Source: Thiohalomonas denitrificans (GTDB lineage Bacteria > Pseudomonadota > Gammaproteobacteria > Thiohalomonadales > Thiohalomonadaceae). From it: 36,075 nucleotides of DNA. The stretch's first letter is position 1. The number at the start of each line of letters is the position of its first letter. Below are positions 2,742 to 22,922 of the stretch, piece by piece. The position numbers and the translations under genes are program-made. The notes beneath the pieces are model-generated. The model worked only from the letters and a program-made list of their open reading frames with translations, ran no database searches and was not told the DNA's origin. The DNA lies in assembly GCF_016841685.1 (NCBI RefSeq), contig NZ_JAENYR010000036.1, forward strand, positions 1 to 36,075, read 5' to 3'.

Positions 2742-3104
2742 TTCCGGGGGGCATGGTGGCATGGATCGCCTCACCGCTTCCGGTGACTTCTCCGACTTGA
2801 CTGGCAACAAGATCACATCGAGAGGTGCATGCCCATCCCTCATTTCCTTGTTAGTGAATTACAGGATGATTCGTGGGGATGCTCAGGATCTGGTCCTTAT
2901 TCGCCGTTGCAAAGGAAGCGATAATTGCTGCTGGGGGTGCCGTCAGGGATCGATTATAGCGGTATAAGTTGCCAGCGCCGTCCGTACAGGGGCTCGATGT
3001 CCGTTTACGTGCGCTTGGTATGGGACAATCCGCCCAACTGACTGCTAAGATTGCTGGTTATGCATTTTTGGGGTTCAGTGGATCTTTTGGCGAATAATAG
3101 AGCG
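2742..3104. other. Intergenic region, no gene recognised
   Basis: About 360 bp between the methyltransferase and the retropepsin operon. A 68-codon frame at 2761 lacks a ribosome binding site and any recognisable motif, so it was not called. The promoter of the downstream three-gene operon presumably lies in the second half. Confidence 0.4.
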
Positions 3105-3869
3105 ATGAAGACGTTTTTTTCCCTGTTGTGTGGTGTTGTGGTGGTCACCGCCGGTTGTGCGATGGACAAGGAAGCAGTAAAGCGTATCGAACAGGAGCAG
3201 CTCCGGCAGTCCTGGTTGCTCGCCGAACAGAGCTCAATGCTGATGGGGCATTCGGCGTTGCTTGCGAAGCAGATTGAGAAGCAGCAGCAGATGATTGACT
3301 TGCTGGCTGACATCGAACACTCCTGGGACGAGCACCGTAAACGGAGTCGTACACCTGCTGCTGCAGAGGTCGCACCTGACACTGCGACACCGGAACCCAC
3401 GCTGGTACTGAGCGAGGAGGGCAAGGCGGTTTTCGGGCGCAACGAGTGGGCCTGGTTGGAACTGCTGGGTCGAAATCTCAAGGTGCGTGTCGACACGGGG
3501 GCCCTTTCGTCCTCATTGAATGCCGTGGACCTGCAGCCCTTCGAGCGCGACGGTCGGGACTGGATACGCTTTCGCCTACCGGATGAAGAACATCCGGAGG
3601 GTGGCGAAGTGTACGAAACTCCCCTGGTGCGTCATGTAAAAATCCGTCAGGCGTCGGCCGACGAACTTGAGCGACGACCAGTGGTTCGTCTCAAGGTGCG
3701 CGTGGGCGGATTATCCGACGATGCGGAATTCACCCTCACAAATCGTGAAAACATGCTGTATCCCATGCTATTGGGCCGTAATTTCCTGCGTGATGTCGTG
3801 GTCGTCGATGTGGCGCGAAAATTTGTGCAGAAAAAATACTCTCCCGAACCAATGGAAGTGCGTGAATGA
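3105..3869 (+). CDS. Retropepsin-like (Zn_protease family) lipoprotein
   Basis: A 254-residue protein. The ATG at 3105 is preferred to an in-frame ATG 54 bases upstream because it begins a lipoprotein signal ending VVVVTAGC (Cys 18). Residues 20-75 are a charged, Gln-rich helix. From about 105 to 245 comes the retropepsin-like fold named in databases as putative ATP-dependent zinc protease (PF05618), with the catalytic-type triplet DTGA at 130-133 in VRVDTGALSSSL and the second-half strand MLLGRNFLRD. Family knowledge: this domain is regularly encoded with an inactive transglutaminase/7TM protein and an ATP-grasp ligase, as here. The stop overlaps the next start by 4 bases (ATGA), indicating translational coupling. 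The coiled, lipid-anchored N-terminus suggests a periplasm-facing sensor or protease; the substrate is unknown. Confidence 0.87.
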   Translation: MKTFFSLLCGVVVVTAGCAMDKEAVKRIEQEQLRQSWLLAEQSSMLMGHSALLAKQIEKQQQMIDLLADIEHSWDEHRKRSRTPAAAEVAPDTATPEPTLVLSEEGKAVFGRNEWAWLELLGRNLKVRVDTGALSSSLNAVDLQPFERDGRDWIRFRLPDEEHPEGGEVYETPLVRHVKIRQASADELERRPVVRLKVRVGGLSDDAEFTLTNRENMLYPMLLGRNFLRDVVVVDVARKFVQKKYSPEPMEVRE

Positions 3870-5392
3870 AAACGGGCCGTGGACCGTTTTACCTGCTTGT
3901 CACTCTGCTGCTGATCACGGGTAGTTTGTTGACGGCGTATCGGTATGCAATGTTCGATGTCCCATGGATGCCGGGTGAGAAAAGGCAGATATGGTCTGTC
4001 GAGGCGCAGGTGGACTTTATTGCGCTCGGTGAGCCGGTGAAGGTATCGCTTGCCATTCCGGATTCACAGCCCGGGTTCGAGCGCGTCGGCGAACGTACAG
4101 CGAGTCCGGGATACGGGCTTGCCTTTGTTGAGAATAATGAGAACAACCATGGTCGACGGGCCGAGTGGTCGATTCGCGAGGCGCAGGGGCGGCAAACGCT
4201 CTACTACCAGGTGGAGATGCTGGTAGATCCCGATGCCGCCGGAGCCGAAACGGCAGTGGAGCCGCCCATATCGCGGGTTCGTCTCGATGGCCCCCATGCC
4301 ACGGTCGTGAACCTGATCCTGGAACGCGCGCGTGAGCGCTCCGCCGATCCGTACACGCTGACCCGTGAACTGATCCATGAATTCAATCGCCAGAGTCAGA
4401 GCGCGAGCCTGCTGACGCAGATGAAACCGCGAGGTGCATGGCTGGTCGATATGCTGCACATGGCAGGTATTCCTGCCCGGGAAGTGCAGGCGTTGAATCT
4501 CGAAGATGGCCGTCGGCGCCAGCAAGTCGTCAACCTGCTGCAGGTTTTCGAAGGCGAAAACTACCAGCTTTTCGACATGCATTCCGGAAAGCCGGGGAAG
4601 CAGACCAATCAGCTGCTTTGGGAGTACTATTCGGCGCCGCTGCTGGATATCGTAGGCGGCCGCAATTCCCGACTCAGCTTTTCCATGATCGAACAGGAAG
4701 TGCCGGTCAATCGCATGCTTGAGGAAGGTACATTTCCCGCTGCACAGAACCTGCTCGACTTTTCCATCCACAGTCTGCCGTTATCCGAACAGGCTCTGTT
4801 CAAGGGTATCCTGCTGATTCCGGTGGGCGTGCTGATCGTCTCGCTTCTGCGCATCATTGTTGGTGTGCGCACGTCCGGCACGTTCATGCCGGTGCTGATC
4901 GCCATGGCATTCATACAGACGAGCCTGCTGACCGGGCTGGTGGGCTTCATTCTCATCGTCGCTGCCGGGCTTATGATCCGCTCTTATCTGTCGCGGCTCA
5001 ACCTGCTGCTGGTGGCACGAATCTCGGCCGTGATCATTTCCGTGATTATCATGATCGCAGCCTTCTCCGTACTTTCCTACCAACTGGGACTCACCGAGGG
5101 GTTGAAGATTACCTTCTTCCCGATGATTATCCTCGCGTGGACTATCGAGCGGATGTCGATTCTGTGGGAGGAGGAGGGTCCCAAGGAAGTGCTTACGCAG
5201 GGCGGTGGCTCGCTAATGGTTGCGTTGTTCGCCTACCTGGTGATGAGCAATGACGTGGTGCGGCATCTGACGTTCAACTTCCTCGGTTTGCAGTTTCTGT
5301 TCATGGCGCTGGTGCTGCTGATCGGCAACTACACCGGATACCGCTTGCTGGAGTTGCGACGCTTCCAGCCGATGCTTGGCGAGCGCGCGTGA
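3866..5392 (+). CDS. Inactive transglutaminase fused to seven TM helices
   Basis: A 508-residue membrane protein, second gene of the operon. One N-terminal TM helix (about 8-26) is followed by a periplasmic transglutaminase-like domain (about 40-290) and a C-terminal bundle of about seven hydrophobic helices (about 310-495). In the segment GAWLVDMLHMAGIPAREVQ the fold's usual G-x-C-x-D...GIPAR pattern is recognisable, but no Cys is present, so the domain should be catalytically dead and probably binds a peptide. This matches the known family described as inactive transglutaminase fused to 7 TM helices. The start overlaps the retropepsin gene by 4 bases, and its stop shares a base with the next ATG. 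It is likely the membrane hub of a system that makes or senses a periplasmic peptide-like compound. Confidence 0.88.
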   Translation: MKTGRGPFYLLVTLLLITGSLLTAYRYAMFDVPWMPGEKRQIWSVEAQVDFIALGEPVKVSLAIPDSQPGFERVGERTASPGYGLAFVENNENNHGRRAEWSIREAQGRQTLYYQVEMLVDPDAAGAETAVEPPISRVRLDGPHATVVNLILERARERSADPYTLTRELIHEFNRQSQSASLLTQMKPRGAWLVDMLHMAGIPAREVQALNLEDGRRRQQVVNLLQVFEGENYQLFDMHSGKPGKQTNQLLWEYYSAPLLDIVGGRNSRLSFSMIEQEVPVNRMLEEGTFPAAQNLLDFSIHSLPLSEQALFKGILLIPVGVLIVSLLRIIVGVRTSGTFMPVLIAMAFIQTSLLTGLVGFILIVAAGLMIRSYLSRLNLLLVARISAVIISVIIMIAAFSVLSYQLGLTEGLKITFFPMIILAWTIERMSILWEEEGPKEVLTQGGGSLMVALFAYLVMSNDVVRHLTFNFLGLQFLFMALVLLIGNYTGYRLLELRRFQPMLGERA

Positions 5393-6411
5393 TGGCCTGG
5401 CATCGGCTGATGAGGTTGCTGCCATTCCGGCGTCTCTCCGAGCAAGGCGTTCTGGGCATGAACCGGCGCAACATCTCCTACATCAGTAGCTACAATCCGC
5501 GCGAACTCTATCCGCTGGTGGATGACAAGTTGAAGACCAAGCGGTTGGCGTTGCACCACGGCGTCACCACGCCGGAATTGCTCGGCGTCATTGAATACCA
5601 GCATGATGTAACGCGTGTGGGAACGCTGGTCGAGGGTCTGGACAACTTTTGCATAAAGCCCGCCAAAGGTTCGGGTGGCAAGGGGATCCTGGTGGTCTCG
5701 CGCGTCGAGGACGGGGTCTTCTATCGTTCCAATGGCCAGGAACTGAGCCTGCGCGATCTGAAGCGGCACGTTTCCAACATCCTGGCCGGCTTGTTCTCGC
5801 TGAGTGGTTCGCCCGACGTTGCGGTGTTCGAGGCCTTGATCGAAGCGGACGACTCGCTACGGGATTACTCCTTTGAGGGCGTGCCGGACGTGCGGATCAT
5901 CGTCTTCCGCGGCTTTCCCGTTATGGCGATGATGCGGCTTTCCTGCGCCGTGTCACATGGCAAGGCAAATCTGCACCAGGGCGCGGTCGGCGTCGGTATC
6001 GACATTGCAAGCGGTGCCGCAGTACGCGCGGTGCAGCGAAATAAACTCGTTCTTTCACACCCGGATACCGGCAAGGATCTCCAATCCCTGAGGATCCCGC
6101 AATGGCCGACACTACTTGATCTCAGCTGTGCCTGCGCAGATATGACGGGTTTGGGCTACCTGGGTGTCGACCTCGTATTGGATCGGCGTCGCGGCCCAAT
6201 GCTGCTGGAACTGAATGCGCGACCGGGGCTGACCATCCAACTCGCAAACGGTGCCGGGCTGCTGCCGCGGCTTCGTCGGATCGAGGCGTTCACACAGGTG
6301 CCGCAAATGACGATTGCACAGCGGGTTGCGTACGTACGCAAACACTTTGCATCGGTCGATGCACAGCGAAATTCACCGCCACAGTTCGTTCCGGAGAAAT
6401 GCTCAGGATAG
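5392..6411 (+). CDS. Alpha-L-glutamate ligase-like ATP-grasp protein
   Basis: A 339-residue cytoplasmic enzyme of the ATP-grasp fold (sugar-transfer-associated/RimK-like group), third gene of the operon. The nucleotide-binding region is seen as FCIKPAKGSGGKGILVV. The metal and ATP ligands are in YLGVDLVLDRRRGPMLLEL followed by NARPGLTIQLANGAGL. The N-terminal LGMNRRNISYI is typical of the family. ATG 5392 overlaps the upstream TGA (TGATG); GTG at 5389 is an in-frame alternative one codon earlier. By family knowledge it should join an amino acid or amine to a carboxylate using ATP. The product here is unknown, but coupling to the transglutaminase/7TM and retropepsin genes suggests one pathway for a modified peptide or osmolyte acting in the envelope. 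Confidence 0.87.
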   Translation: MAWHRLMRLLPFRRLSEQGVLGMNRRNISYISSYNPRELYPLVDDKLKTKRLALHHGVTTPELLGVIEYQHDVTRVGTLVEGLDNFCIKPAKGSGGKGILVVSRVEDGVFYRSNGQELSLRDLKRHVSNILAGLFSLSGSPDVAVFEALIEADDSLRDYSFEGVPDVRIIVFRGFPVMAMMRLSCAVSHGKANLHQGAVGVGIDIASGAAVRAVQRNKLVLSHPDTGKDLQSLRIPQWPTLLDLSCACADMTGLGYLGVDLVLDRRRGPMLLELNARPGLTIQLANGAGLLPRLRRIEAFTQVPQMTIAQRVAYVRKHFASVDAQRNSPPQFVPEKCSG

Positions 6412-7945: not shown

Positions 7946-8905
7946 GTGAATCGGGTGTTGATATTTGCACGACAGGCAGATCTTCCTGAGCGGATTTTCC
8001 GGATTCGTGGTCTGCTGTTTGCGGTGCTATTTGTGGCGACGGGAGTCCAGGCGGCAAACGATGCCGATCTGGCGATCGTAAAAACGGTCGACAACGCCTT
8101 CCCGCAGGAGGGCGACACCCTCGTCTATACCCTGACGCTCACCAACAACGGCCCGAAAAACGCCAACAACATCGCGGTGAGCGATCTATTGCCGGCCGGT
8201 TTGGCTTACGCCTCCCATGTTGGCAGCGGCACCTATGACCCTGGGACCGGAGAGTGGTCGCCGGGAACTCTTCTGAAGAGTGGCGAAATGGTGCAGCTCG
8301 CCATCACTGCAATGGTGAATGCCGGCACGGCCGGGAGCATTCTTACCAATACCGTCACGGTTACCGGAAGCACGGCGACGGATCCGGAATCCTCAAACGA
8401 CAGCGGTAGTGTCGACATCACGGTGGTTGCGCCCAATCTGACCATGCTCAAGTCGGCCCAGACCGTCTCGGATCCTGTCAACGGCGTCGATTCGCCCTAC
8501 GACATTCCCGGCGCGACCGTGCTCTACAGCGTGCAGACCACCAACACCGGTCTCGGAGTACCGGACAGCGATACGCTGGTGATGAGCGATCCGATCCCTG
8601 CCTATACCGAGCTGTTCGTCGGCGATCTCGACGGCGCCGGTTCCGGACCGGTTCTGCTGATTGATGGCCATGCGCCGGTGAACAGCGGCCTGACCTACAT
8701 CTTCTCCGGCCTGGCCAGCGCCACCGATGACCTCGAGTTCTCGAACGACAACGGCGCGAGCTGGGGCTATACCCCGGTCCCGGACATCGATGGCTACGAC
8801 GCCAATGTGACCCACATTCGCGTCAATCCGAAAGGGGAGATGCGTGCCTCCAACGGCACTGACCATCCGACCTTTACTCTGCGATTCAGGGTGAGGGTGC
8901 AATGA
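7946..8905 (+). CDS. Secreted DUF11-repeat protein A
   Basis: A 319-residue protein, first gene of the five-gene DUF11 operon. The start is a GTG at 7946 with no strong ribosome binding site; GTG 7955 is an alternative. Either gives a Sec signal (IRGLLFAVLFVATGVQA-AND). Residues about 38-150 form a classic DUF11 (PF01345) module: ADLAIVKTVDNAFPQEGDTL, YTLTLTNNGPKNANNIAVSD, LLPAGLAY. A second, diverged module follows (LTMLKSAQTVSDP, VLYSVQTTNTGLG, DPIPAYTELFVGD). DUF11 modules are Ig-like beta domains of large surface proteins. There is no membrane anchor or LPXTG. The stop overlaps the next ATG by 4 bases, so translation is coupled. The exact role is unknown. Confidence 0.83.
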   Translation: MNRVLIFARQADLPERIFRIRGLLFAVLFVATGVQAANDADLAIVKTVDNAFPQEGDTLVYTLTLTNNGPKNANNIAVSDLLPAGLAYASHVGSGTYDPGTGEWSPGTLLKSGEMVQLAITAMVNAGTAGSILTNTVTVTGSTATDPESSNDSGSVDITVVAPNLTMLKSAQTVSDPVNGVDSPYDIPGATVLYSVQTTNTGLGVPDSDTLVMSDPIPAYTELFVGDLDGAGSGPVLLIDGHAPVNSGLTYIFSGLASATDDLEFSNDNGASWGYTPVPDIDGYDANVTHIRVNPKGEMRASNGTDHPTFTLRFRVRVQ

Positions 8906-9900
8906 TGAAGCGCACGCTGGCGGGAATACCTCTGTGGCTGCTCCTGCTGGCCCCGTGGCTGGCGCTGCCATCGCCCGCACTGGCCACCGGCACCAGCGCC
9001 GGCGTTGATATCAGGGCTACGGCCACGGCGGAGTACAGCATCGGCGATAGCCGTAGCAGCGTTACCAGCAACACGGCGATCTTCCGGGTCGATCAAATAC
9101 TTGATGTCACCCTCAGCTGGCAAAATGCCGATCATCGCCCGGTCGGCTCGCCCGATTCCGATCAAGTACTGAGCTACCTGCTCACCAACACCGGCAACGG
9201 GGACGACAGTTATTCCCTCAGTGTGGAGAACGGCCTGGGCGGCGATCAGTTCGCCCCGGAGTTTGTGGACATCTACCTGGATGCGGATGGCAATGGTCTG
9301 CTGGACCCCGAGTTCGACACCCTCTACATCACCGGCCGCAACGACCCGCAGCTGACGGCTGATGCCGCACGGGTTGTGTTCGTGCGCAATAACATCCCCG
9401 CCGACCTGCATGACGGTGACCTGGGTAGCAGCCAACTCAACGCCACCTCCAACACCGGCAGCGGTGCGCCGGGAACGACTTTCGATGGCGCCGGCAACAA
9501 CGGTATCACGGCGGTGGTCGGTGCTTCCGGCGGCACGGACGGCGCGACTGGGAGCTATCAGGTCAGCGGCGCCGGTGTCTCGCTGTTGAAGTCCGTGGCA
9601 ATCGTGAACCCACTGGGTGGGGAGCAGCCGGTAACCGGTGCGCTCATGACCTACCGGATCGAGGTCACCGTCAGCGGCACGGCCAGGGCGAACGGCGTGG
9701 TGATTACCGACTCGATCCCGGCGAACACCAGCTATGTCCCGGCGAGCCTGACCCTGAATGACGAAGCGCTCACCGACGCCGCCGACGGGGATGCCGGTGA
9801 TGTCGGCGACAGCCGCGCCGATACGGTCACGGTGGACCTGGGCGATCTGAACCCGGGCTCGCCGACTCGCATCATCACTTTCGACGTCCTCATCGATTAA
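8902..9900 (+). CDS. Secreted DUF11-type protein B
   Basis: A 332-residue exported protein overlapping gene A by 4 bases (ATGA). The signal peptide is MMKRTLAGIPLWLLLLAPWL followed by ALPSPALA-TG. The mature N-terminus has a pattern shared with protein D and with the giant barrel protein: an alternating strand with ATAEYSIGD and VTSNTAIFRV. The middle contains an acidic, possibly calcium-binding loop (YLDADGNGLLDPEFD). The last third is a DUF11 module (VSLLKSVAIVNPLG, MTYRIEVTVSG, VITDSIPANTSYVPASLTL) ending TFDVLID. It is clearly paralogous to the gene at 10569. The function is unknown; it is likely a periplasmic or surface structural subunit. Confidence 0.83.
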   Translation: MMKRTLAGIPLWLLLLAPWLALPSPALATGTSAGVDIRATATAEYSIGDSRSSVTSNTAIFRVDQILDVTLSWQNADHRPVGSPDSDQVLSYLLTNTGNGDDSYSLSVENGLGGDQFAPEFVDIYLDADGNGLLDPEFDTLYITGRNDPQLTADAARVVFVRNNIPADLHDGDLGSSQLNATSNTGSGAPGTTFDGAGNNGITAVVGASGGTDGATGSYQVSGAGVSLLKSVAIVNPLGGEQPVTGALMTYRIEVTVSGTARANGVVITDSIPANTSYVPASLTLNDEALTDAADGDAGDVGDSRADTVTVDLGDLNPGSPTRIITFDVLID

Positions 9901-9918
9901 TCGCAATGGGAGAACATC

Positions 9919-10398
9919 ATGAAGCCATTACTCTTCTTTAGCAGCATCCTGCTGCTGGCCCTGTTCAGCGCCCCGCTGCTGGCCGAGATCACCCTCACCA
10001 CGGTGGCGGAAACCGAAGTCACGGAGGTCGACGCACGGGGCGAGGAGATCGTCCGGCGCACCCGCGCCAATCGGGTCGTGCCGGGTAGCGAGGTGATCTA
10101 CACCATCACCGCCAAAAACAGCGGCGCCGAGCCGGCCGACAACGTCGTGGTGACCAATCCGATCCCGGAACAGACCGTGTATGTCGACGGCAGTGCGTTT
10201 GGCGCCGGCACGGAAATCATCTTCTCGGCCGATGGCGGCAAGCACTATGACGCTGCCGGACAACTGACGGTGAAACAGGCGGATGGGCTGTCGCGGGCCG
10301 CCACCGGGGAGGACTACACCCATGTGCGTTGGCATCTGGCGTTCAGCCTTGCACCGGGTGAGGAAGCGCCGGTGGGCTATGTCGTGCGGGTGAAATAG
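9919..10398 (+). CDS. Small secreted DUF11-type protein C
   Basis: A 159-residue exported protein with GGGAG 9 bases before the ATG. The signal is MKPLLFFSSILLLALFSAPL-LA. The mature protein is a single DUF11-like beta module: VVPGSEVIYTITAKNSGAEP, ADNVVVTNPIPEQTVYVDGS, then an Asp/Gly region and a C-terminal APVGYVVRVK. It lies 18 bases after gene B and about 170 bases before gene D, in the same direction. Its single-domain size suggests a minor or capping component, but that is inference. Confidence 0.8.
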   Translation: MKPLLFFSSILLLALFSAPLLAEITLTTVAETEVTEVDARGEEIVRRTRANRVVPGSEVIYTITAKNSGAEPADNVVVTNPIPEQTVYVDGSAFGAGTEIIFSADGGKHYDAAGQLTVKQADGLSRAATGEDYTHVRWHLAFSLAPGEEAPVGYVVRVK

Positions 10399-10568
10399 CG
10401 GACGCGCACTTACCAAAACCGTTTTTCTGGTGCGCGGCGAGTGTGTTCGAAAGTTCACGCCGCCGCGGCCATCCCGGCCAGCAGCGGCCGGTCCTTCCCG
10501 CAGGGGATTTGATGCGGCCATGCCGCAACCATTTTTCGACCAGGCAACAACAGAAAAGGAGTAGTCCC

Positions 10569-11603
10569 ATGCAGTACAACAACAAGAGCAACACCGCGGG
10601 CCTGATATTGGGTCTGACATTTTTCATCGGGGGAGTGCAAACCGTACACGCGGCCGGTACGGAATCCGGAATAACCATCAGCAACAGTGCCACCGTCGAC
10701 TATCAGGTCGGTGGTGTCGACCAGACACAGTTGACCAGTAACGCGGCGGAGTTTGTGGTGGACAACCGGGTCGACCTGACCGTCGCTAACCCATCGGGCA
10801 CCAGTGTGGTTCCGAACAGCACAGCACAGGCCCTGACCTTCACCGTTACCAATACGGGTAACACCGAACAGGGTTACTCGCTGTCCGCAGCCAATACAGG
10901 CGGTGATGACTTCGACATGACGAACGTTGCCATCTACATCGAAGATGGAACAACGCCCGGGTTTCAGAGTGCGGAGGACACCCAGTACTCAGCGGGTGCC
11001 AATGCGTCTGATTTGGCAGCGGATACCAGTACAACGGTCTATGTCGTGGCGGATACCCCGGCTACGGCGCTCGATGGAGAGGCAGCCGATATCGTCCTGA
11101 CAGCAACAACGCTCGATGCGGGTACGAGCGCCATCACGGTAGAAACCGTCGGCGCAAACAATGCCGGTGCGGTCGATGTGGTGTTTGGCGATGGTGCCGG
11201 GGCAGCCGATGCAGCCAGTGACGGCATCCATTCCGCGATAGGCACCTACACCGTCACCAGCGCGGCGCTGACCGTCAGCAAGAGTGTTGCGGTGACGGAC
11301 GATCCCTTTAACGGAACGACCGATCCGAAGGCCATTCCCGGTGCCACCATGCGCTACACGATTGACGTGCAGAACGGCAGCACGACGACGGCGGCAGACA
11401 ACGTGGTGTTGGTCGATGCGCCTCCGGCAAACACGAGCTATGAGGTCGGCACGATTACGCTGAACGGGGCGGCAAAGACGGACGGTGCAGGTGACGACGA
11501 AGCGGACTTCAACGGCACCAATGCCAATGCCGTTACAGTAACGATACCGACTGTGGCAGCAGGCGGCACGGCAACCATCACCTTCGATGTGACGATCGAT
11601 TAA
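10569..11603 (+). CDS. Secreted DUF11-type protein D, paralogue of B
   Basis: A 344-residue exported protein. ATG 10569 is chosen because AAAAGGAG precedes it and a signal peptide follows (NTAGLILGLTFFIGGVQTVHA-AG); the frame is open further upstream without such signals. Like protein B it starts with GITISNSATVDYQVGG and LTSNAAEFVVDN, carries a middle beta domain, and ends with a DUF11 module (LTVSKSVAVTDDP, MRYTIDVQNGST, LVDAPPANTSYEVGTITLNG) finishing TFDVTID. Composition is rich in Ala, Thr, Asp and Gly and nearly lacks Cys, as in secreted structural proteins. B and D probably arose by duplication within the operon. Confidence 0.83.
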   Translation: MQYNNKSNTAGLILGLTFFIGGVQTVHAAGTESGITISNSATVDYQVGGVDQTQLTSNAAEFVVDNRVDLTVANPSGTSVVPNSTAQALTFTVTNTGNTEQGYSLSAANTGGDDFDMTNVAIYIEDGTTPGFQSAEDTQYSAGANASDLAADTSTTVYVVADTPATALDGEAADIVLTATTLDAGTSAITVETVGANNAGAVDVVFGDGAGAADAASDGIHSAIGTYTVTSAALTVSKSVAVTDDPFNGTTDPKAIPGATMRYTIDVQNGSTTTAADNVVLVDAPPANTSYEVGTITLNGAAKTDGAGDDEADFNGTNANAVTVTIPTVAAGGTATITFDVTID

Positions 11604-11621
11604 TTACGTCTTCGAACGTCC

Positions 11622-14600
11622 GTGGTGACCGGGTTGTTGCGTACTGCATGGCGGCGTGCCGCCGGCCTTCTGGCCGGCGGTATTGTCGTGTCTGCACGTT
11701 CGAAACAACCCGCCGCCGACTTTGCCATGAAAGCAGACAGGGCATATGCCAGGCTGCACCGGAAAGCCGGTCTGCCCATGGCTGCGCGCCAAAGGCGCGG
11801 TTATGGGCAGGCCGGTTTCCGGTGGCTGTGGCTCAGCCTGCTGCTGTTGCCGATTCCCGGCCAGGCCGTTCCCCCGGGGACGGTGATCGAGAACACGGCG
11901 AGTGCAACCTTCAGTGGCGGTATCACCCGTCTCTCCAACATGGTTTCCACCGTGACGGTTGCCAGAACGCCCTCCAGTCTCGAGTTCCTGCAGTACGCAC
12001 CTGAGTCAGCGGCGGCACAAGCCGTAGCTGTGGCTGTCACCGAATACAGCACCAGCGGTATGACGGCCGGACCGTTTGTCGCCATGTCGCCGCCGACGGC
12101 CGCAGGGAACAGCACAGCGATCAACCTGGCTGATGCGGTGCCGCTGGAATTGGTCACTGTATATCACGCCGGTGCCCCGATCTTCGTACGGGTGACCGAC
12201 CGGGACCAGAACCTCGACGCCGGTGCGGTGGAAACGGTGAACGTGACGCTCACGGTGAACGCAACCGGGGACCGCGAGGTACTGCGTCTGCAGGAGACCG
12301 GCCCGAACACCGGTGTGTTCACCGGCTATATCCAGTCGTATCTCATTGCTTCCAATCCAGGCGCCGCGCAGCCGGCGAACGGCCAACTGGGCCTGCATGA
12401 AAAGGTGAACATCACCGGCCGTTACGTCGACGTGGTCGACGACACGGACACCACCACCGAGAGCGCCCTGGTCGACCCCTTCGGTGTGGTGTTCGACAGC
12501 TCGACTGGCCAGGTGATCGACGGTGCCCGGGTGACACTCATCGACGCCGCCACCAATCGGCCGGCAACGGTCTATGGCGATGATGGCATCAGCACCTTCC
12601 CGTCGACCATCACCAGTGGCGGCAGCGCCACCGACAGCGCAGGGACGGTGTACCAATTCGATCCCGGCCGATACCGGTTCCCCGTCGCGATGCAGGGGAC
12701 CTATCGCCTTGAGGTGACTCCGCCTGCCGGGTACAGCGCCCCCAGTGTGGTGCCGACCGCGGTGCTGCAGAACCTGCCGGGTGCACCCTATGTCATCGAC
12801 GAACAGGGATCGCGCGGCGAGCCGTTTGAAGTGGTGGTAGGGCCGGCGATTCAGGTTGATATTCCGCTGGACCCGCGAAACAGCGGCCTCTTCCTGGTGA
12901 AGGAGGTGAACAAGAGCGTGGCTGCGGTGGGGGATTTCATCCAGTATCGTCTGGGCCTGACCAACGATGCGGGTGTTACCGCGGGGGCCCCGCAGATCAT
13001 CGATACGCTGCCTGCGGGTTTTCGCTATCAGCACGGCAGTACCACCCTCGACGGCAATGCCGCCCCTGAACCGGAGATCACTGCCGACGGGCGCACTCTC
13101 ACTTTCACACTTGATGACCTCCCTGAAGGTAATGCGCTCGAGGTGCGCTATGTGGTCGAGATCGCTGCAGGAGTGCAGGACGGGGAGGCCATCAACCACG
13201 CCGTGGCCAGCGCCAACGGAGGGAGGCTCGTTTCCAACCCTGCCAGCGCAAGCGTCCGCGTCAGCCAGGAGCTGTTGCGCGATCAAAACATCCTGATGGG
13301 CCGCGTGATTGCCGGCGAGTGTGAGGCGCCGGAGAGCGACATCGCCAAGGGCGTCGCCGGGGTACGCCTCTATCTGGACAACGGTACCTATGTGGTGACC
13401 GATGAGCAGGGGATGTTCCACCTCGAAGGCATTCGCCCCGGCAGTCATGTGGTGCAGATGGACCTGAATACCCTGGCACCGCAGTACGAACCGGTGATCT
13501 GTGATGAGCACACCCGGTTTGCCGGGCGCAGTTTCTCCCGCTTTATCGACTTGCAGGGCGGCACCCTGTGGCGCACCGATTTCCATGTCCGGGAGCGGCC
13601 GCCGCCGACGGCGGAGGTGGAGTTGTCGCTCGGCAGTGGCGTGGAAGGGCACATGGCTACCTACCACGTGGCCATGAAAGGCGGAGATGTGCCGTTGCAG
13701 AACATGCGTTTGATGATCAGTCTGCCGCCGGGTACCCGCTACCTGCCGGGCAGCAGCGTGCTGGACGATCGCCTCGTCGGCGATCCCGAGCAACAGGGCT
13801 CGGTGCTGGTCTACGCCCTGGGCGAGATCGAGGGCGCCTGGGACAAGGAGCTCAACTTCCTCGCCGAAGTGGAGGTGAAAGGGGAGAGCGCCCTTCTGCA
13901 AAGCAAGGCATTCATGATGTTCGATAGTCCGGAGAAAAAGAATCAGCGCACACCTGTGGTGGAAACCGTTATGAAGCGCCTGCGCCATGAGAAACAGCTC
14001 AAGGGTGAGAAGAGCCTGCAGTTTGAAACCTTCAGCACGCTATTGACGGAGAGGGACAGGGAAGAGCTGGAACGGGTGGCCGAGCATTTGCGTGAGCACC
14101 GGGTGATCCGCATCGAGGCGACCGGGCATACCGACAACCTGCCGATCCGCGAACGTTCGAACAGCCGGTTTGCCGACAATATGGCACTCTCCACCGCCCG
14201 TGCCAGGGAGGTCGGAGAATACCTTGTCACGCTGCTGGAGTTACCTGATTCCGCCCTGGTGATCAATGGAATGGGTGCAAACGTACCGTATGCACCGAAT
14301 GCTACCGAACAGGGTCGCAGCCGCAATCGCCGCGTCGAGCTGCGCATTGTCACCGAAAGCCTGCTCGATGCCTCACAGCTGAATGACATCACAACCGTGA
14401 ACAACATCGTGGTCGAGGTTGAAGGGGAGTGGAAACAGCCGCCGGTGCCCGAGCGAAAAACCTCGAGCGAAGAGGTGAAGCTCTACAGCATGCCCGACTA
14501 TGACAAGGCCCGGCTCGAATCTGCCGAACCGGGGCTGGAGTTACTCTGGCCTCCGGAAGGCTATAACCCGCCGATACCGAGCATCAAGGTCGCGGTGAAA

Positions 14601-17594
14601 CACGATCCCGCGCAGCACCTGTCGCTGTTTTTGAACGGCCAACCGGTGAGCGAACTGAATCGTGACAGCCGGATCCGCAATGCACAGGGCACGGTGGCGG
14701 TGAGCTCGTGGGCGGGTGTTGATATCGACAAGGGCAGCAACACCCTGGTGGCGGAGGTGCGCGATGCCGACGGGACATTGCTGGAGCGCCTTGAACGCGA
14801 AGTGCGCCTGTCATCCCTGCCGGTACGGGCCGAGCTGGTCGAGGAGCAGTCGCGCCTGGTGGCCGACGGCCGGCAAACACCCGTGATCGCGGTACGCCTG
14901 TTCGACAAGGATGACCGACCTGTTCGTGAAGGTCTGATTGGCGAGTTTTTCGTCGAGGCGCCACATGTCGCACAACTGGATGTTGATGATCTGCAGCGTC
15001 AGCCGTTGACCGGTCTGGATCGGGGTAACCCCCGCTACCGTGTCGGCAAGGATGGCATTGCTCTCATCGAGCTCAAGCCGACCACCACCACCGGCGAGGC
15101 GATACTGGTTCTTCCCATGCAGGGTCGCGAGGTGACCTTGCGTCCCTGGTTAGAGGCGGCGCAACGGGACTGGATTCTGGTGGGGCTGGCCGAGGGCACC
15201 GTCGGCCACAACACCGTCAGCGGCAATCTGGAAACGCTCGAGGCCGCCGATCTGGAAAAAGAGACCTACAGCGATGGCAAGGTCTCTTTCTTCGCCAAGG
15301 GCAGTATCAAGGGCGAATGGCTGCTCACCCTGGCGTATGACTCCGACAAGCAGGAAGCAGAGCGCAATACCCTGTTTCAGGAGATCGATCCCGACAGCTA
15401 TTTCCCGGTCTACGGTGACAAGAGCACGCAGGGCTATGATGCGGCCAGTCGCGAGAAACTCTATGTGCGACTGGAGCGGCGTCAGTTCTACGCCCTGTTC
15501 GGAGATTACACCACCGGCCTGACCGTGACCGAGCTGGCCCGTTACGACCGCTCGCTGACCGGTGTCAAATCCGAACTGCACAGCGAGCACTTCAAGTTCA
15601 ACGTGTTCGCCAGTGAAAACGACCAGAATTTTGTCCGGGATGAGCTTCGCGGCGACGGCACCTCCGGGCTCTATCGCCTGCGCTATCCGGACCTGGTATT
15701 CAACTCCGACAAGGTACGGATCGAGACCCGCGACCGATTTCGTCCCCAGCTTGTGCTGTCGTCCCGGCCGATGACACGCCATCTCGATTACAACATCGAC
15801 TACGACGCCGGTACGCTCTATTTCAAGCAGCCGGTAGCGAGCAAGGATGCCAAGCTTAACCCGATTTACATCGTCGTCGATTATGAAACCCGCAATGAGG
15901 GGGTCGACGCCCGGACCTGGGGCGGCCGCGGTGCGGTGCAGCTGCTGGAACAGAAGGTTGAAGTCGGCGCCAGCTATATTAACGAGGGACGCGACAGCGG
16001 CGAGGAGACCCTTCAGGGGCTCGATGCCATCGTCGACTTCAGCCTCAGTACCCAAATGAAGCTCGAGTACGCCACCAGCCAAAGCGTGGATGGGCAAGAC
16101 AGCGATGCCTATCTGGCGGAGCTGCGCCATACCTCCGGTAAGGTCGATGGTCGCGCCTACTACCGTGAACAGGAGGTGGATTTCGGCCTCGGCCAGCAAA
16201 GCGTCATCGGCTCCGGCACCCGGCTGGTCGGTATTGACGGGCGTTATCACCACAGTGACACGCTCGATTATGTCGCGGACATCTTCCGCGAGAAGGGCCT
16301 GCAGACGCAGGCGGAGCGGGATGTGATCGACACAGGGGTCGTCTACGACACCAGCCGCTACGGCGCCTCCGCCGGGTTGGTGATGGCTCGGGACAGCTAC
16401 CGTGACGGCACGGAGGACATCTCGGAACAGTTGAGTCTGGGTGCGCACCGCGCGTTTCTTGATAATCGGCTCGAGTTGCGCATCGATCACTATCAGTCGC
16501 TATCGAGCAATGAGAATCCTGACTACCCCACCCGCACGCTTATGGGTGGGGATTACCGGCTCAATCCCTCCACGGCACTGTTCCTGGAACAGGAATTCAC
16601 TTTTGGGGAGGAAGAGGAAACCCGCGCTACCCGGCTGGGTATGAAGCACCAGCCATGGACCGGCGCGACCCTGAACAGTTCTCTGGAGCAGCAGAATAGT
16701 GAGGCCGGTGAGCGCCTGTTTGCCAATGCCGGCCTGATGCAGACCTGGCAGGTCACCGAACGCTGGAGCATGAATGCCAGCATTGACAACAGCACCACGA
16801 TCGAGGAGCCGGAAGATGCGTCGTTCGGCAGCAGCTTTTCGACGGCATCCACCGAAACGGAAGATTTCACCGCCGTATCGCTGGGTGCCAACTATCAGCA
16901 CCAAAGCTGGTCCTGGACCTCACGCGTGGAGCAGCGCGATGCCAAGAGTGAGGACAAGTGGGGTTTTTATTCGGCGACCGCGGGTGAGCCGCGCAAGGGC
17001 CTGGGGCTGTCGGCTCGACTGGAGCTGTTCGAAACGCAAAGCACCAGCGGCGTTGAAGAGAAGAGTGGCGACTTGCGCCTGGGCCTGGTGCGGCGTCCGT
17101 TTGGGCGTCGCTGGACCATTCTGAATCGCGCTGACTATGCCGTTGATACTCAGACTGGGGGTACCAGTGACTTCGATAACTGGAAAGTGGTCAATAACCT
17201 GCTGGTCAACTATCGTCGCCGTGCTTCCCAGATCAGCACCTACTACGGCGCGAAATACGTGCGCGACACCATCGATAGTACCGTCTATTCCGGTTACACC
17301 GATTCGCTCGGGGTGGAGTCACGCCATGACCTGAACAAGCGCTGGGATATCGGTGCGCGAGCCAGTACGCTGCGTAGCGTGAACAGCGATCTCTACGAGT
17401 ACTCCTACGGGCTCTCCGTGGGCTTTAATCCCGCCACCAATCTCTGGTTGAGCGTCGGCTATAACTGGGCGGGCTATGAAGATGACGATTTCTCCCTGGC
17501 CGGTTACGCGGCAAAGGGCCCCTACCTGAAGCTTCGCTTCAAGTTTGATCAGCAGTCGCTGCGGGAAGTGGCCAGCGGCTTTACCCGCCACTGA
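11622..17594 (+). CDS. Giant DUF11/OmpA/outer-membrane barrel protein
   Basis: About 1990 residues, last gene of the operon. The GTG at 11622 gives the longest form. The export signal (FRWLWLSLLLLPIPGQA-VPPG) is at residues 66-82, so ATG 11778 (26 codons shorter than a third option at ATG 11727 plus its leader) or ATG 11727 may be the true start. Order of modules: a B/D-like N-terminal strand (VIENTASATFSGG, RLSNMVSTVTV); beta domains to about 420; a DUF11 module (about 420-545); an Sdr/CarboxypepD-reg-like domain (GVAGVRLYLDNGTYVVTDEQ, about 552-640); another DUF11-like stretch; an OmpA domain (about 800-915) with EATGHTDNLPIRE and RSRNRRVELRI; Ig-like domains to about 1185; and about 800 residues of alternating beta strands, probably an outer-membrane barrel (segments LYVRLERRQFYALFGDYTTG, YNIDYDAGTLYFKQPV). 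It probably anchors proteins A-D at the outer membrane and the wall. It ends without an aromatic residue. Confidence 0.85.
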   Translation: MVTGLLRTAWRRAAGLLAGGIVVSARSKQPAADFAMKADRAYARLHRKAGLPMAARQRRGYGQAGFRWLWLSLLLLPIPGQAVPPGTVIENTASATFSGGITRLSNMVSTVTVARTPSSLEFLQYAPESAAAQAVAVAVTEYSTSGMTAGPFVAMSPPTAAGNSTAINLADAVPLELVTVYHAGAPIFVRVTDRDQNLDAGAVETVNVTLTVNATGDREVLRLQETGPNTGVFTGYIQSYLIASNPGAAQPANGQLGLHEKVNITGRYVDVVDDTDTTTESALVDPFGVVFDSSTGQVIDGARVTLIDAATNRPATVYGDDGISTFPSTITSGGSATDSAGTVYQFDPGRYRFPVAMQGTYRLEVTPPAGYSAPSVVPTAVLQNLPGAPYVIDEQGSRGEPFEVVVGPAIQVDIPLDPRNSGLFLVKEVNKSVAAVGDFIQYRLGLTNDAGVTAGAPQIIDTLPAGFRYQHGSTTLDGNAAPEPEITADGRTLTFTLDDLPEGNALEVRYVVEIAAGVQDGEAINHAVASANGGRLVSNPASASVRVSQELLRDQNILMGRVIAGECEAPESDIAKGVAGVRLYLDNGTYVVTDEQGMFHLEGIRPGSHVVQMDLNTLAPQYEPVICDEHTRFAGRSFSRFIDLQGGTLWRTDFHVRERPPPTAEVELSLGSGVEGHMATYHVAMKGGDVPLQNMRLMISLPPGTRYLPGSSVLDDRLVGDPEQQGSVLVYALGEIEGAWDKELNFLAEVEVKGESALLQSKAFMMFDSPEKKNQRTPVVETVMKRLRHEKQLKGEKSLQFETFSTLLTERDREELERVAEHLREHRVIRIEATGHTDNLPIRERSNSRFADNMALSTARAREVGEYLVTLLELPDSALVINGMGANVPYAPNATEQGRSRNRRVELRIVTESLLDASQLNDITTVNNIVVEVEGEWKQPPVPERKTSSEEVKLYSMPDYDKARLESAEPGLELLWPPEGYNPPIPSIKVAVKHDPAQHLSLFLNGQPVSELNRDSRIRNAQGTVAVSSWAGVDIDKGSNTLVAEVRDADGTLLERLEREVRLSSLPVRAELVEEQSRLVADGRQTPVIAVRLFDKDDRPVREGLIGEFFVEAPHVAQLDVDDLQRQPLTGLDRGNPRYRVGKDGIALIELKPTTTTGEAILVLPMQGREVTLRPWLEAAQRDWILVGLAEGTVGHNTVSGNLETLEAADLEKETYSDGKVSFFAKGSIKGEWLLTLAYDSDKQEAERNTLFQEIDPDSYFPVYGDKSTQGYDAASREKLYVRLERRQFYALFGDYTTGLTVTELARYDRSLTGVKSELHSEHFKFNVFASENDQNFVRDELRGDGTSGLYRLRYPDLVFNSDKVRIETRDRFRPQLVLSSRPMTRHLDYNIDYDAGTLYFKQPVASKDAKLNPIYIVVDYETRNEGVDARTWGGRGAVQLLEQKVEVGASYINEGRDSGEETLQGLDAIVDFSLSTQMKLEYATSQSVDGQDSDAYLAELRHTSGKVDGRAYYREQEVDFGLGQQSVIGSGTRLVGIDGRYHHSDTLDYVADIFREKGLQTQAERDVIDTGVVYDTSRYGASAGLVMARDSYRDGTEDISEQLSLGAHRAFLDNRLELRIDHYQSLSSNENPDYPTRTLMGGDYRLNPSTALFLEQEFTFGEEEETRATRLGMKHQPWTGATLNSSLEQQNSEAGERLFANAGLMQTWQVTERWSMNASIDNSTTIEEPEDASFGSSFSTASTETEDFTAVSLGANYQHQSWSWTSRVEQRDAKSEDKWGFYSATAGEPRKGLGLSARLELFETQSTSGVEEKSGDLRLGLVRRPFGRRWTILNRADYAVDTQTGGTSDFDNWKVVNNLLVNYRRRASQISTYYGAKYVRDTIDSTVYSGYTDSLGVESRHDLNKRWDIGARASTLRSVNSDLYEYSYGLSVGFNPATNLWLSVGYNWAGYEDDDFSLAGYAAKGPYLKLRFKFDQQSLREVASGFTRH

Positions 17595-18087: not shown

Positions 18088-19842
<1,755 letters not shown>

Positions 19843-21250: not shown

Positions 21251-21646
21251 TTATTGTTCGCGCTGGTCACGGGTCTGCTGCTGGAATTCATACTGCTCCT
21301 GACGCATTTCCTGATTCATCTCCTCACGCTGCTCCTGAAGCTGCTCGCGCATCTCCTTGCGATGCTGCTGCATCTCCTCTCGCTGTTCGTTCTCCTCGCG
21401 ATTGGTGCGCAGCCGTTCCTGATTGCGCTCACGCTGCTGATTGGCCGTTTCCAGCCCATCGGTCGCGCTCTTACGCGCCTGTTCCCGGACCTGTGCAGGC
21501 AGTTCGATGCGCTGGGTCACTGCGTCGGGGGTCGCCTCGGGGCCGACCACCTGCATGGTGACATCATCGACATCCTCCGCAAAGGCACCGGCTACGGGCG
21601 CGATCAGCCCGCCTATCATAATTGCACTTACCAGGGTTTGTTTCAT
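21251..21646 (-). CDS. Exported Glu/Gln/Arg-rich coiled-coil protein
   Basis: A 131-residue protein. ATG 21646 is preferred (GAGGAGATGAAATC before it) and overlaps the anti-sigma stop by 4 bases. The signal peptide is MKQTLVSAIMIGGLIAPVAG, cut near AFA-ED. After a short acidic region, residues about 55-131 are one long, highly charged amphipathic helix of Q, E, R and M, repeating patterns such as REEMQQHRKEMREQLQEQRE. No Cys or enzymatic motif is seen. Helical periplasmic proteins of this sort (compare Spy/CpxP-like chaperones) are common targets of envelope stress regulons, but no family match is claimed. Its place in the operon suggests a periplasmic effector or signal input of the ECF system. 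Confidence 0.78.
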   Translation of the reverse strand: MKQTLVSAIMIGGLIAPVAGAFAEDVDDVTMQVVGPEATPDAVTQRIELPAQVREQARKSATDGLETANQQRERNQERLRTNREENEQREEMQQHRKEMREQLQEQREEMNQEMRQEQYEFQQQTRDQREQ

Positions 21647-22344
21647 GATTTCATCTCCTCGAAAGGGTTTGTGGTTGTAGGGTCTTTTGACCAATACACA
21701 TGCCGGTCCGGTGTTAACCGTCGGGTGTGATTCGCTGCTTGGATCTCGAGGCGTAGCCGAAACGCTTTCGATTTTCCGCCGTGCTCGATTCGTGCCACCA
21801 GTTCACCTCCACGGCCTTCCCGTGCCCTCACCGGGAGGGAGAGCAGATTGGTGCCCTGTTGCAGGTCGGTCTGCCAGGTCAGCTGACGCTGGTCCGGGTA
21901 GCCGGCCAACTCCACGCCGGCCGGAAGCTCCATGACAAGCGTGCCGCCGCGGATTGCCTGTGGCACATTGAACGCAAGATCGACCGTGCGCTCCTCGTGC
22001 AGGGCCAGTGTGATCCCGTCGAGGGGAGTGGACGCCTGATGCCCGACCATGAGGCCTGCCCAGGAACCGGTCAAAAGGAGGGCGACCGCTGCTGCCGCCG
22101 CCCATCGGCGCTGGATAGTACGGGTGTAGCCTGATGAGGCGGCCAGGGCGCGTCTGGCGAATCCGGGGCTTGCCGGGGGGATCGGCAGCGCACGCAAGTT
22201 GCGCATTAGCGAGTGAGCCGCGATCAGCTCTGCCTTGCAGCGGTCGCATGCGTCGGTGTGTCGCTCCATGGCCTCCATCGCCTGGCGGCCCAGTTGGCCG
22301 TCCAGGTGGTCGTCGAGCCGCTGTTTGAAATCGGTGCAGTTCAT
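21643..22344 (-). CDS. Anti-sigma factor with zinc-finger (zf-HC2) domain
   Basis: A 233-residue single-pass membrane protein. The N-terminal cytoplasmic domain has the zinc-binding anti-sigma motif H-x3-C-x2-C in MERHTDACDRCKAEL (about 26-40), preceded by DDHLDGQLG. A TM helix lies at about 82-103 (AAAAAVALLLTGSWAGLMVG). The periplasmic part (about 105-233) is a beta-rich domain of unknown type (GGTLVMELPAGVELAGYP), which may be the sensor. It follows the sigma gene after 11 bases and overlaps the coiled-coil gene by 4, the usual sigma/anti-sigma arrangement. The role is to hold the ECF sigma factor inactive until an envelope signal arrives. Confidence 0.9.
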   Translation of the reverse strand: MNCTDFKQRLDDHLDGQLGRQAMEAMERHTDACDRCKAELIAAHSLMRNLRALPIPPASPGFARRALAASSGYTRTIQRRWAAAAAVALLLTGSWAGLMVGHQASTPLDGITLALHEERTVDLAFNVPQAIRGGTLVMELPAGVELAGYPDQRQLTWQTDLQQGTNLLSLPVRAREGRGGELVARIEHGGKSKAFRLRLEIQAANHTRRLTPDRHVYWSKDPTTTNPFEEMKS

Positions 22345-22355
22345 GTCGTTGTCCT

Positions 22356-22922
22356 CTATCCCTCTAAACGCACAGATTCGTCAAAAGGTTTCATCTCCGG
22401 CTCCAATTCTTCCCGGAGTCGGACGCGCGCCCGGTGCAGACGTGACTTCAGGGTGCCGATCGGTGTACCCAATAGCCTCTCCAGCTCCGGGAGCGCATAG
22501 CCTTCGATATCGTGGAGCGCTACCAGGGCGCGCTGGTCCGGATTGAGCTTTTTCAGGGCACCCTCGATGCGGCGCTGCTGGAGGGTCGTCTCGGTTGCGG
22601 ACTCAGGATCGGTAGCGGGATCGGTCGCTGCGGTGGCATCCGGATCGCTCTGTTCGGTGACCGGCGTACGACCGGCCTGCCGCCGTTGATCGATGAATAG
22701 ATGGTAGAGCGTCCGCGTGAGCCATGGCTTCAGCTGCTCGATCGCAGCCAATTCTCCACGGCGGGGATAAAGCTTCACCAACAGGTCCTGTACCAGATCC
22801 TCTGCATCGGTACGGTTGCCTGTGAAGCGGTAGGCGAGATGGTACAAATGATCCAGATTGGGTCCGAGGAGCCCCTCGAATTCGCGCTTCCGGCGTTTGA
22901 AAAGATGGATTAGGTTGGCCAT
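22356..22922 (-). CDS. ECF-type sigma-70 family RNA polymerase sigma factor
   Basis: A 188-residue sigma factor with AAGGGAGG before the ATG. Region 2 spans about 20-85 with HLAYRFTGNRTDAEDLVQDL and QLKPWLTRTLYHLFIDQRRQ. A low-complexity Asp/Ala/Thr-rich linker (about 92-115) follows. Region 4 spans about 118-172 with LNPDQRALVALHDIEGYALP, then ELERLLGTPIGTLKSRLHRA, the helix-turn-helix for the -35 element. It lacks extra C-terminal domains. It heads an operon with its anti-sigma and a coiled-coil exported protein, so it probably controls an envelope-stress regulon. An autoregulated promoter is expected in the 200 bp upstream; I did not identify its sequence. Confidence 0.93.
   Translation of the reverse strand: MANLIHLFKRRKREFEGLLGPNLDHLYHLAYRFTGNRTDAEDLVQDLLVKLYPRRGELAAIEQLKPWLTRTLYHLFIDQRRQAGRTPVTEQSDPDATAATDPATDPESATETTLQQRRIEGALKKLNPDQRALVALHDIEGYALPELERLLGTPIGTLKSRLHRARVRLREELEPEMKPFDESVRLEG

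Follow-up and report, generated by a model that had tools for sequence, protein, structure and literature searches.

Gene content and domain organization of the operon

The window studied here is a 36,075-nt stretch of Thiohalomonas denitrificans DNA (NZ_JAENYR010000036.1). Its positions 7946-17594 hold five forward-strand ORFs (A-E in the ORF list), which encode proteins of 319 (A), 332 (B), 159 (C), 386 (D, as listed) and 1990 aa (E). A and B overlap by 4 nt, and the remaining intergenic gaps measure 18, 44 and 18 nt for the ORFs as listed. Started at the ATG at 10569, D would have 344 aa; this is the likelier start, lying just before the signal-peptide-like segment that, judged by eye, each of the five proteins carries near its beginning. 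All five are genuine genes. The same-strand order and the A/B overlap had been put forward in an initial sequence-only reading of this DNA; both hold, and the order is more than chance, as it recurs in most related loci.

The Pfam DUF11 model (PF01345, cut-off 24.6 bits) scores 113 bits in A, 25.6 in B, 35.6 in C and 36.4 in E. D is absent from the PF01345 rows but passes TIGR01451 (26.2 against a cut-off of 24), a model above cut-off in all five proteins. The four small products are therefore DUF11-type proteins, A, B and C by Pfam and D by TIGR01451, as had been proposed. The paralogy claimed for two of them applies to B and D; in a quick tree, B forms one side of a branch (SH-aLRT 94). Among the modules first ascribed to the giant protein E, DUF11 and OmpA stand (PF00691 at residues 801-903, 55.2 bits against a cut-off of 27.2), and the "Sdr-like" module falls below cut-off (19.1 versus 29.7 bits).

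The features are listed below. "Acceptor" refers to a C-terminal part-domain, "donor" to an N-terminal segment that resembles the strands such a part-domain lacks, and hmm positions to our own 125-position DUF11 profile.

7946-8905, + strand: A; signal-peptide-like start, complete DUF11 at aa 41-160, C-terminal putative acceptor domain of ~160 aa (A-CTD; triad residues Lys169 and Asp215), no N-terminal donor
8066-8425, + strand: complete DUF11 of A (hmm 1-125 of 125)
8902-9900, + strand: B; signal-peptide-like start, N-terminal donor-like segment (aa 27-60; in this copy with Ala in place of Asn and a score inside the shuffle range), NEW3-like Ig domain (assigned by paralogy with D), C-terminal putative acceptor DUF11 ending at strand F
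9598-9897, + strand: acceptor part-domain of B (hmm 9-88 of 125; one residue after it; Lys230, Asp270)
9919-10398, + strand: C; one acceptor-like DUF11 domain, Lys absent, Asn in place of Asp, no donor
10443-11603, + strand: D; paralogue of B, with putative donor hairpin, NEW3-like Ig domain and CnaA-like acceptor domain
10650-10757, + strand: donor hairpin of D at the mature N-terminus (Asn81 in ORF numbering)
11268-11600, + strand: acceptor part-domain of D (hmm 2-89 of 125; zero residues after it; Lys280, Asp325)
11622-17594, + strand: E; giant protein of 1990 aa, putative outer-membrane base
11865-11960, + strand: donor hairpin of E (aa 82-113; Asn91)
12897-13259, + strand: complete DUF11 within E (aa 426-546)
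14022-14330, + strand: OmpA peptidoglycan-binding domain of E (aa 801-903)
15174-17549, + strand: barrel predicted in E (aa 1185-1976; 38-40 strands counted from DSSP of the model)
15651-15860, + strand: insertion resembling a plug within the barrel (aa 1344-1413); highly conserved, with no sequence relative found in Pfam or PDB

DUF11 was rightly taken for a known family at the outset, and a function for it has been described. In a 2025 survey (PMC12617251), the crystal structure of one such domain was solved and DUF11 renamed CLIPPER; it forms an intramolecular Lys-Asn isopeptide bond with the help of a catalytic Asp, the triad in 9IFR being Lys 715, Asp 748 and Asn 806. The complete DUF11 of A, which found no match among PDB sequences at E ≤ 0.01, holds the whole triad within a single domain of one chain. 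The terminal domains of B and D have Lys and Asp only; in most relatives an Asn is carried by the N-terminal segment of B, D or E.

Distribution and conservation of the operon

A scan of named genomes gave at least 537 relatives of the C-terminal part of E among at least 591 pattern matches, and the best 80 were kept; in 57 of these loci the DNA upstream of E extends for 3.5 kb or more. Of the 57, 55 contain C, and homologues of the giant protein are thus usually accompanied by small DUF11 genes, in line with the association first suggested. D was called by script in 53/57 and is also present, by eye, in L073 and L084, where it was missed because the ORFs overlap or are long. B occurs in 44 loci and is absent from 13, and B, C and D occur together in 42/57. 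Median lengths in this set spread narrowly (B 337, C 165.5, D 384.5, E 1959 aa). A-like genes, by score, accompany 26/57 loci, upstream in 15 and downstream in 12, with both arrangements in one locus. Two loci depart from the pattern: L029 and L031 are without C, and L031 is also without B and D. Comparison of these loci establishes the gene order as a family trait at the sequence level.

By record labels the relatives belong to seven phyla (Thermodesulfobacteriota, Myxococcota, Nitrospirota, Krumholzibacteriota, Eiseniibacteriota, Pseudomonadota and Campylobacterota). Within the window's class, a profile of the E plug matched 50/369 genomes and one of D 28/369 (E ≤ 1e-10), and the system is therefore patchy. 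Plasmid p4 of Acinetobacter haemolyticus carries a variant with DUF11 genes, an E relative of ~2000 aa, OmpA encoded separately and one more DUF11 gene; its E has no donor match. Among the matches listed, the closest relative of E (L018, 66% identity) sits in a MAG titled as a Halobacteria archaeon, probably a binning error. The genome of the window itself bears another locus (L016, G000:C104), in which the gene for a DUF11 protein of ~4170 aa precedes that for a ~1740-aa protein containing several OmpA domains as well as a related barrel. Such gene pairs also exist in other genomes, and in a variant form on plasmids of Sinorhizobium meliloti and Eleftheria (further loci L012, L013, L014, L099 and L100).

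A DUF11 domain split between neighboring genes

The DUF11 profile was built from 85 internal, complete, non-C-terminal repeats plus the seed, taken from A-like and giant DUF11 proteins (30 of the 85 from two giant proteins), with no B, C, D or E included. A domain was counted as complete when it ran from hmm ≤15 to ≥115 with a score >10. In the complete repeats the triad is well kept (K 68/82, D 84/85, N 75/85).

By this definition a complete DUF11 occurs in 0/46 B, 0/59 C and 0/63 D proteins, all three of which end with a domain about 70% complete. In 44/46 B and 50/63 D the C-terminal match breaks off at hmm 88-89 of 125 (medians), roughly one residue before the protein ends, and in 36/59 C it does so nearby (median hmm 87). 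N-terminal matches to the tail only set in at hmm 88-89 (medians) in 41/46 B, 54/63 D and 35/68 E, against 2/59 C. Across the family, alignment to the profile thus places the cut in DUF11 at one fixed point, between positions ~89 and ~90. No split DUF11 was detected in the giant-protein clade (L012, L013, L014, L016).

A tail-only profile scored best at the N-terminus in 40/46 B, 56/63 D and 52/68 E, where protein length alone would predict 22, 29 and 5.8%; in C the N-terminus was best in 27/59 (expected 45%), with a negative median score. N-terminal segments exceeded all of 100 shuffles in 32/46 B, 38/63 D and 41/68 E, compared with 2/59 C and 0/24 A (one of these 24 being the D of L073, which sat among the A rows in the A-CTD, shuffle and full-profile counts). 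As a control, 634 other ORFs of the related loci, A-like genes included, were searched. A tail-only match at the N-terminus appeared in eight, seven of which read as missed or second members of the system by sequence and place: second D-like subunits, the missed D of L073, a second operon in L049 and a broken E in L054. A C-terminal partial match appeared in 16/634, read as A-, C- or D-type genes. The N-terminal pattern that the sequence-only reading had noticed in B, D and E is, by profile searches, shuffles and comparison with other ORFs, real and specific within the family.

The catalytic residues follow the same division. In the putative acceptors of B, D and A-CTD, Lys and Asp are kept and the Asn strand is missing: Lys and Asp are each present in 45/45 B, 59/59 D and 29/33 A-CTD. 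At their mature N-termini, B, D and E carry segments that resemble the absent strands, Asn included (40/45 B, 56/59 D, 64/68 E), with the limit that E donors pass the full DUF11 profile in only 35/68. C retains Lys in 4/58 and Asp in 10/58, so most copies would be unable to form the bond. These counts exclude rows of odd length (1/46 B, 4/63 D, 1/59 C and short rows of the A-CTD alignment). Loss of the A acceptor Lys and of the B donor Asn, compared by eye, coincides in L064, and the window, L040 and L037 do not follow; this comparison is given no weight here.

In the window copy, the acceptor of B covers hmm 9-88 and that of D hmm 2-89, and C matches only hmm 10-71. As for donors, that of E (hmm 91-123) scores 12.1, clear of its shuffles at 2.8; that of D (hmm 89-112) scores 7.3, barely over shuffles at 7.2; and that of B (hmm 74-103, Ala for Asn) reaches 2.2 bits, within its own shuffles (maximum 7.3). 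As only E is clear, D is marginal and B lies within its shuffles, the case for a split domain in this copy rests on the family.

One-chain relatives spanning the junction

Among relatives and the 369 genomes of the window's class, loci with a D-type N-terminus in a frame longer than 700 aa were fetched (G007, G093, G370, G275, G040 and G057). Six loci (L010, L132, L133, L134, L135 and L136) encode one protein of 780-1008 aa with two B/D-like units in place of B and D; that of L136 begins at the edge of the DNA stretch taken. In 6/6 the inner DUF11 runs from hmm 4-20 through the split point to hmm 115-122, and the proteins' own C-termini end at hmm 89. The Asn strand at the L136 junction is AGDIDNTATVEY. 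By alignment, the junction of the two units reads as one continuous DUF11 in these six relatives. Describing the proteins as a fusion of B and D stays a reading, because they hold more Ig-like domains than B plus D.

The independent Pfam DUF11 model covers 3-108 of 114 at the L136 junction and ends at 83 of 114 at the C-termini of L010 and L135; its best stretch falls short at the L133 and L134 junctions, ending at 67-70, and lies elsewhere in L132. The E protein downstream of the one-chain protein opens with a donor in L010, L132, L133 and L135 (scores 4.0-8.1) and with a weak one in L136 (2.2). E of L134 has no donor match by profile, and the pattern is present by eye. A fusion of D with E was sought in the same six relatives. 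In the E proteins of L010, L135 and L136, a motif shared with the window's E is preceded by a donor, then a middle region, then a DUF11 that is complete or nearly so, a layout no more than suggestive of a D-E fusion; the remaining three are without the window-E motif. Both L133 (11687-12262) and L134 (2445-3191) have, between E and a second B/D-like gene, a short ORF that resembles a lipoprotein and contains CVSTEELYA.

The predicted model of D (pLDDT 94.5) has an ordered N-terminus, with blocks of pLDDT 92-98. Single PDB domains match residues 39-41 to ~204 (Z up to 8.0, rmsd ~2.3 over 99), and residues 205-316 match the CnaA-like collagen-binding RspB (Z 7.5, within the noise range of the tool; rmsd 2.8 over 93). 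The donor (residues 1-38) consequently falls outside both domains. The top PDB rows are integrins spanning the whole model, N-terminus included (Z 8-9, rmsd over 8), and Foldseek likewise returned mostly integrin and other Ig folds, indicating fold class only.

The confident modeling of this N-terminus within a single chain would agree with a hairpin that closes the C-terminal domain of its own chain, giving closed monomers and no chain of subunits. We consider this highly improbable: domain 1 begins right behind the hairpin (model residue ~40) with no linker reaching back, E has a donor without an acceptor and A an acceptor without a donor, and in the six one-chain proteins the tail completes the preceding domain.

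A as a proposed variable end

The A-CTD profile (~160 aa) matches 47 proteins. In 33 the match takes in the whole profile and reaches to within 0-2 residues of the C-terminus; apart from the D of L073, these 33 are A-like proteins of 154 to 1438 aa, lengths that are lower bounds because several run off the stored DNA. Their genes are located upstream or downstream of the core. The other 14 matches are partial or internal; they include giant proteins as well as A-like genes from two Sulfurovum-type loci (L086 and L089). In two Sphingomonas loci (L078, L081) the A-CTD stands alone. The DUF11 profile recognizes A-CTD weakly, in 8/34 rows or 7/33 without the stray D of L073, and its acceptor status rests for this reason on the Lys and Asp columns and the end strand. 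Such a pattern suits a stalk that varies in length and is anchored through its C-terminal end.

E as a putative base

AlphaFold2 was run on E 930-1990 plus 71 relatives from the best 80 loci (nine omitted for incomplete alignment), giving a barrel model with pLDDT 83.2 and pTM 0.79. From residue 1185, where the sequence-only reading had also begun the barrel, DSSP assigns 42 strands of at least five residues; leaving out two in the plug gives 40, and counting two tight hairpins as single strands gives 38. E 1185-1976 is accordingly predicted as a barrel of 38-40 strands with an internal plug. Its tight turns suggest that in the model both barrel ends are periplasmic and that the plug (1344-1413) enters from the periplasmic side. 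Mean column identity is 65% in the plug (34 sequences) versus 46% for the whole stretch (72 sequences).

E 925-1990 has no Pfam match (E up to 0.1) and none among 25 of the 35 NCBIfam rows listed, and an autotransporter beta-domain is absent among the eight Pfam matches of E (E up to 0.1). Foldseek placed SlpA, MtrB, ApoB100, SprA and BtuB first, with TM-scores by query ≤0.21. VIA gave MtrB at Z 17.1 (rmsd 12.1 over 341) and ushers at Z 11.3-13.6, several of them aligned from the first strand. For the modeled barrel these matches are a likeness of barrels, not kinship. The plug motif "DY.IDY..G" may resemble SprA. A sequence relationship of the plug to SprA was considered and rejected: the best PDB match has E 0.059 (AdpA, a chance match), and Pfam offers nothing better than E 0.05, in one member. 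SprA_N (PF14349) matched 0/20 genomes, in a search whose control was also without a match.

Proposed assembly and alternatives

We think it rather probable that A-E form a multi-subunit surface fibre with its base, a chain A|B|D|E joined by strand complementation on a base bound to wall and outer membrane. In this chain, A, B and D would each end in an acceptor domain short of its last two strands, B, D and E would each begin, once mature, with a donor supplying such strands, and every donor hairpin would insert into the acceptor of its neighbor. The genes would set its polarity, as A is without a donor (distal end) and E without an acceptor (base). Because the acceptor keeps Asp and Lys and the donor brings Asn, a Lys-Asn isopeptide bond between two proteins is probable at each junction, and the junctions, judging from these residues, are probably covalent. 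Such a split junction would be the natural counterpart of split isopeptide tags. E would hold the chain through its OmpA domain in the wall and a very large plugged barrel in the outer membrane, and the chain would probably pass through this barrel or be exported by it. A would form a variable outer part with a conserved C-terminal acceptor. C is probably a placeholder, cap or chaperone guarding the donor strands, a role that we offer as a guess. Surface location, and adhesion as the use of the fibre, are what we infer from this arrangement. The earlier proposal of one structure fixed to both wall and outer membrane accordingly stands as far as the complementary DUF11 parts on neighboring proteins, the OmpA domain and the predicted barrel are concerned, and its assembly would follow from them by inference.

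Simple topology would leave the N-terminal part of E on the periplasmic side, which counts against this fibre reading. Strand parity, taken from the model, puts that part, OmpA and both barrel ends in the periplasm, as would suit a periplasmic and outer-membrane scaffold in which A-D decorate E and stabilize the envelope with nothing exposed. We regard a scaffold as quite unlikely: the length of A varies around a conserved C-terminal domain, as expected for a surface stalk; a pore of 38-40 strands far exceeds the needs of an anchor; and DUF11 is typical of surface stalks, according to PMC12617251.

B and D each have a donor and an acceptor, like pilins, and L033, L039, L049 and L087 contain an extra D-like subunit. 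Both points would agree with B and/or D homopolymerizing into a pilus by strand exchange; A would then be the tip, E the base or an export platform and C a chaperone, and there would be no fixed one-copy A|B|D|E. Such a homopolymer seems unlikely, since B and D separate as two old groups in the quick tree and the two B/D-like units per chain of the six one-chain relatives are better suited to a fixed chain. Returning to the fixed A|B|D|E chain, a wider claim could be built on it, to which we give a little less than an even chance: a multi-phylum class of Gram-negative fibres with enzyme-free cross-links by isopeptide domains split between neighboring genes, a wall-tied plugged barrel of 38-40 strands, and C, a dead acceptor, as assembly guard.

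Comparison with known systems

Chaperone-usher pili (FimD/PapC) are similar in having incomplete Ig-like subunits with an N-terminal extension, a likeness seen here by sequence only, and in the resemblance of their usher barrels to that of E noted above. Usher barrels carry an inserted plug. The operon differs in its lack of a match to the usher family, its far larger predicted barrel and its residues for a covalent bond. In the window's genome the usher model PF00577 reached at best 9.9 bits (cut-off 27.1), on another contig, with an E. coli control matched; by this test the operon is outside the chaperone-usher family.

The SprA translocon of type 9 secretion likewise has a very large barrel, of 36 strands. 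Foldseek relates it to E at E 9e-8 to 2e-5 with TM-scores by query of 0.11-0.17; no sequence relation was found between SprA and E, in which the plug is an internal domain. If the prediction is true, the base barrel of E would be, to our knowledge, as large as any known. Deinococcus SlpA, by PDB titles the outer-membrane protein of an S-layer complex, supplied the top Foldseek rows (7zgx, 8agd and 8ae1; E 5e-9 to 4e-8, TM 0.20-0.23), and with TM-scores this low the likeness is one of barrels only. We know of no DUF11 partner operon for SlpA.

CLIPPER fibrillar adhesins, such as B9T28_05395 of Acinetobacter silvestris, share the DUF11 stalk with Lys/Asp/Asn, the OmpA-type anchor and the Gram-negative setting; as described in PMC12617251, they are single chains with complete domains, whereas in the operon several genes share one domain and the base has a predicted giant barrel. 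The archaeal threads of Saci_0406 also combine donor strand complementation with a proposed intersubunit isopeptide bond. In PMC9715654, the partners of this bond are the N-terminal amino group of subunit n+2 and an Asn of subunit n, within a single repeated subunit type of an archaeal envelope, whereas a Lys-Asn bond in a CLIPPER fold is proposed here. A full-text PMC literature search, including the accessible parts of PMC12617251, PMC9715654, PMC11952670, PMC3751524, PMC12502724 and PMC10151520, found no account of the operon or of a split DUF11; the portion of PMC11952670 available has DUF11 only as repeats in a spore-fibre anchor. A split triad with strand complementation on the CLIPPER fold looks undescribed.

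If the proposed fibre is true, a widespread surface system has been annotated only as scattered "DUF11", "OmpA family" and "TonB-dependent receptor" genes, and it would be a natural source of split protein-tagging pairs. Its clear prediction is a covalent Lys-Asn link between two gene products.

Other features of the window

Directly downstream of E, an ORF at 18109-19842 fuses a cytochrome c domain to a cytochrome d1 domain. Genes for a putative Zn protease, a 7TM-transglutaminase-like protein and a sugar-transfer ATP-grasp protein cluster at 3051-6411. On the reverse strand, 21643-22922 encodes a sigma-70-type factor adjoining a zf-HC2 protein, probably a sigma/anti-sigma pair. Finally, a tandem repeat of ~58 bp is present in 2.4 copies at 75-209.
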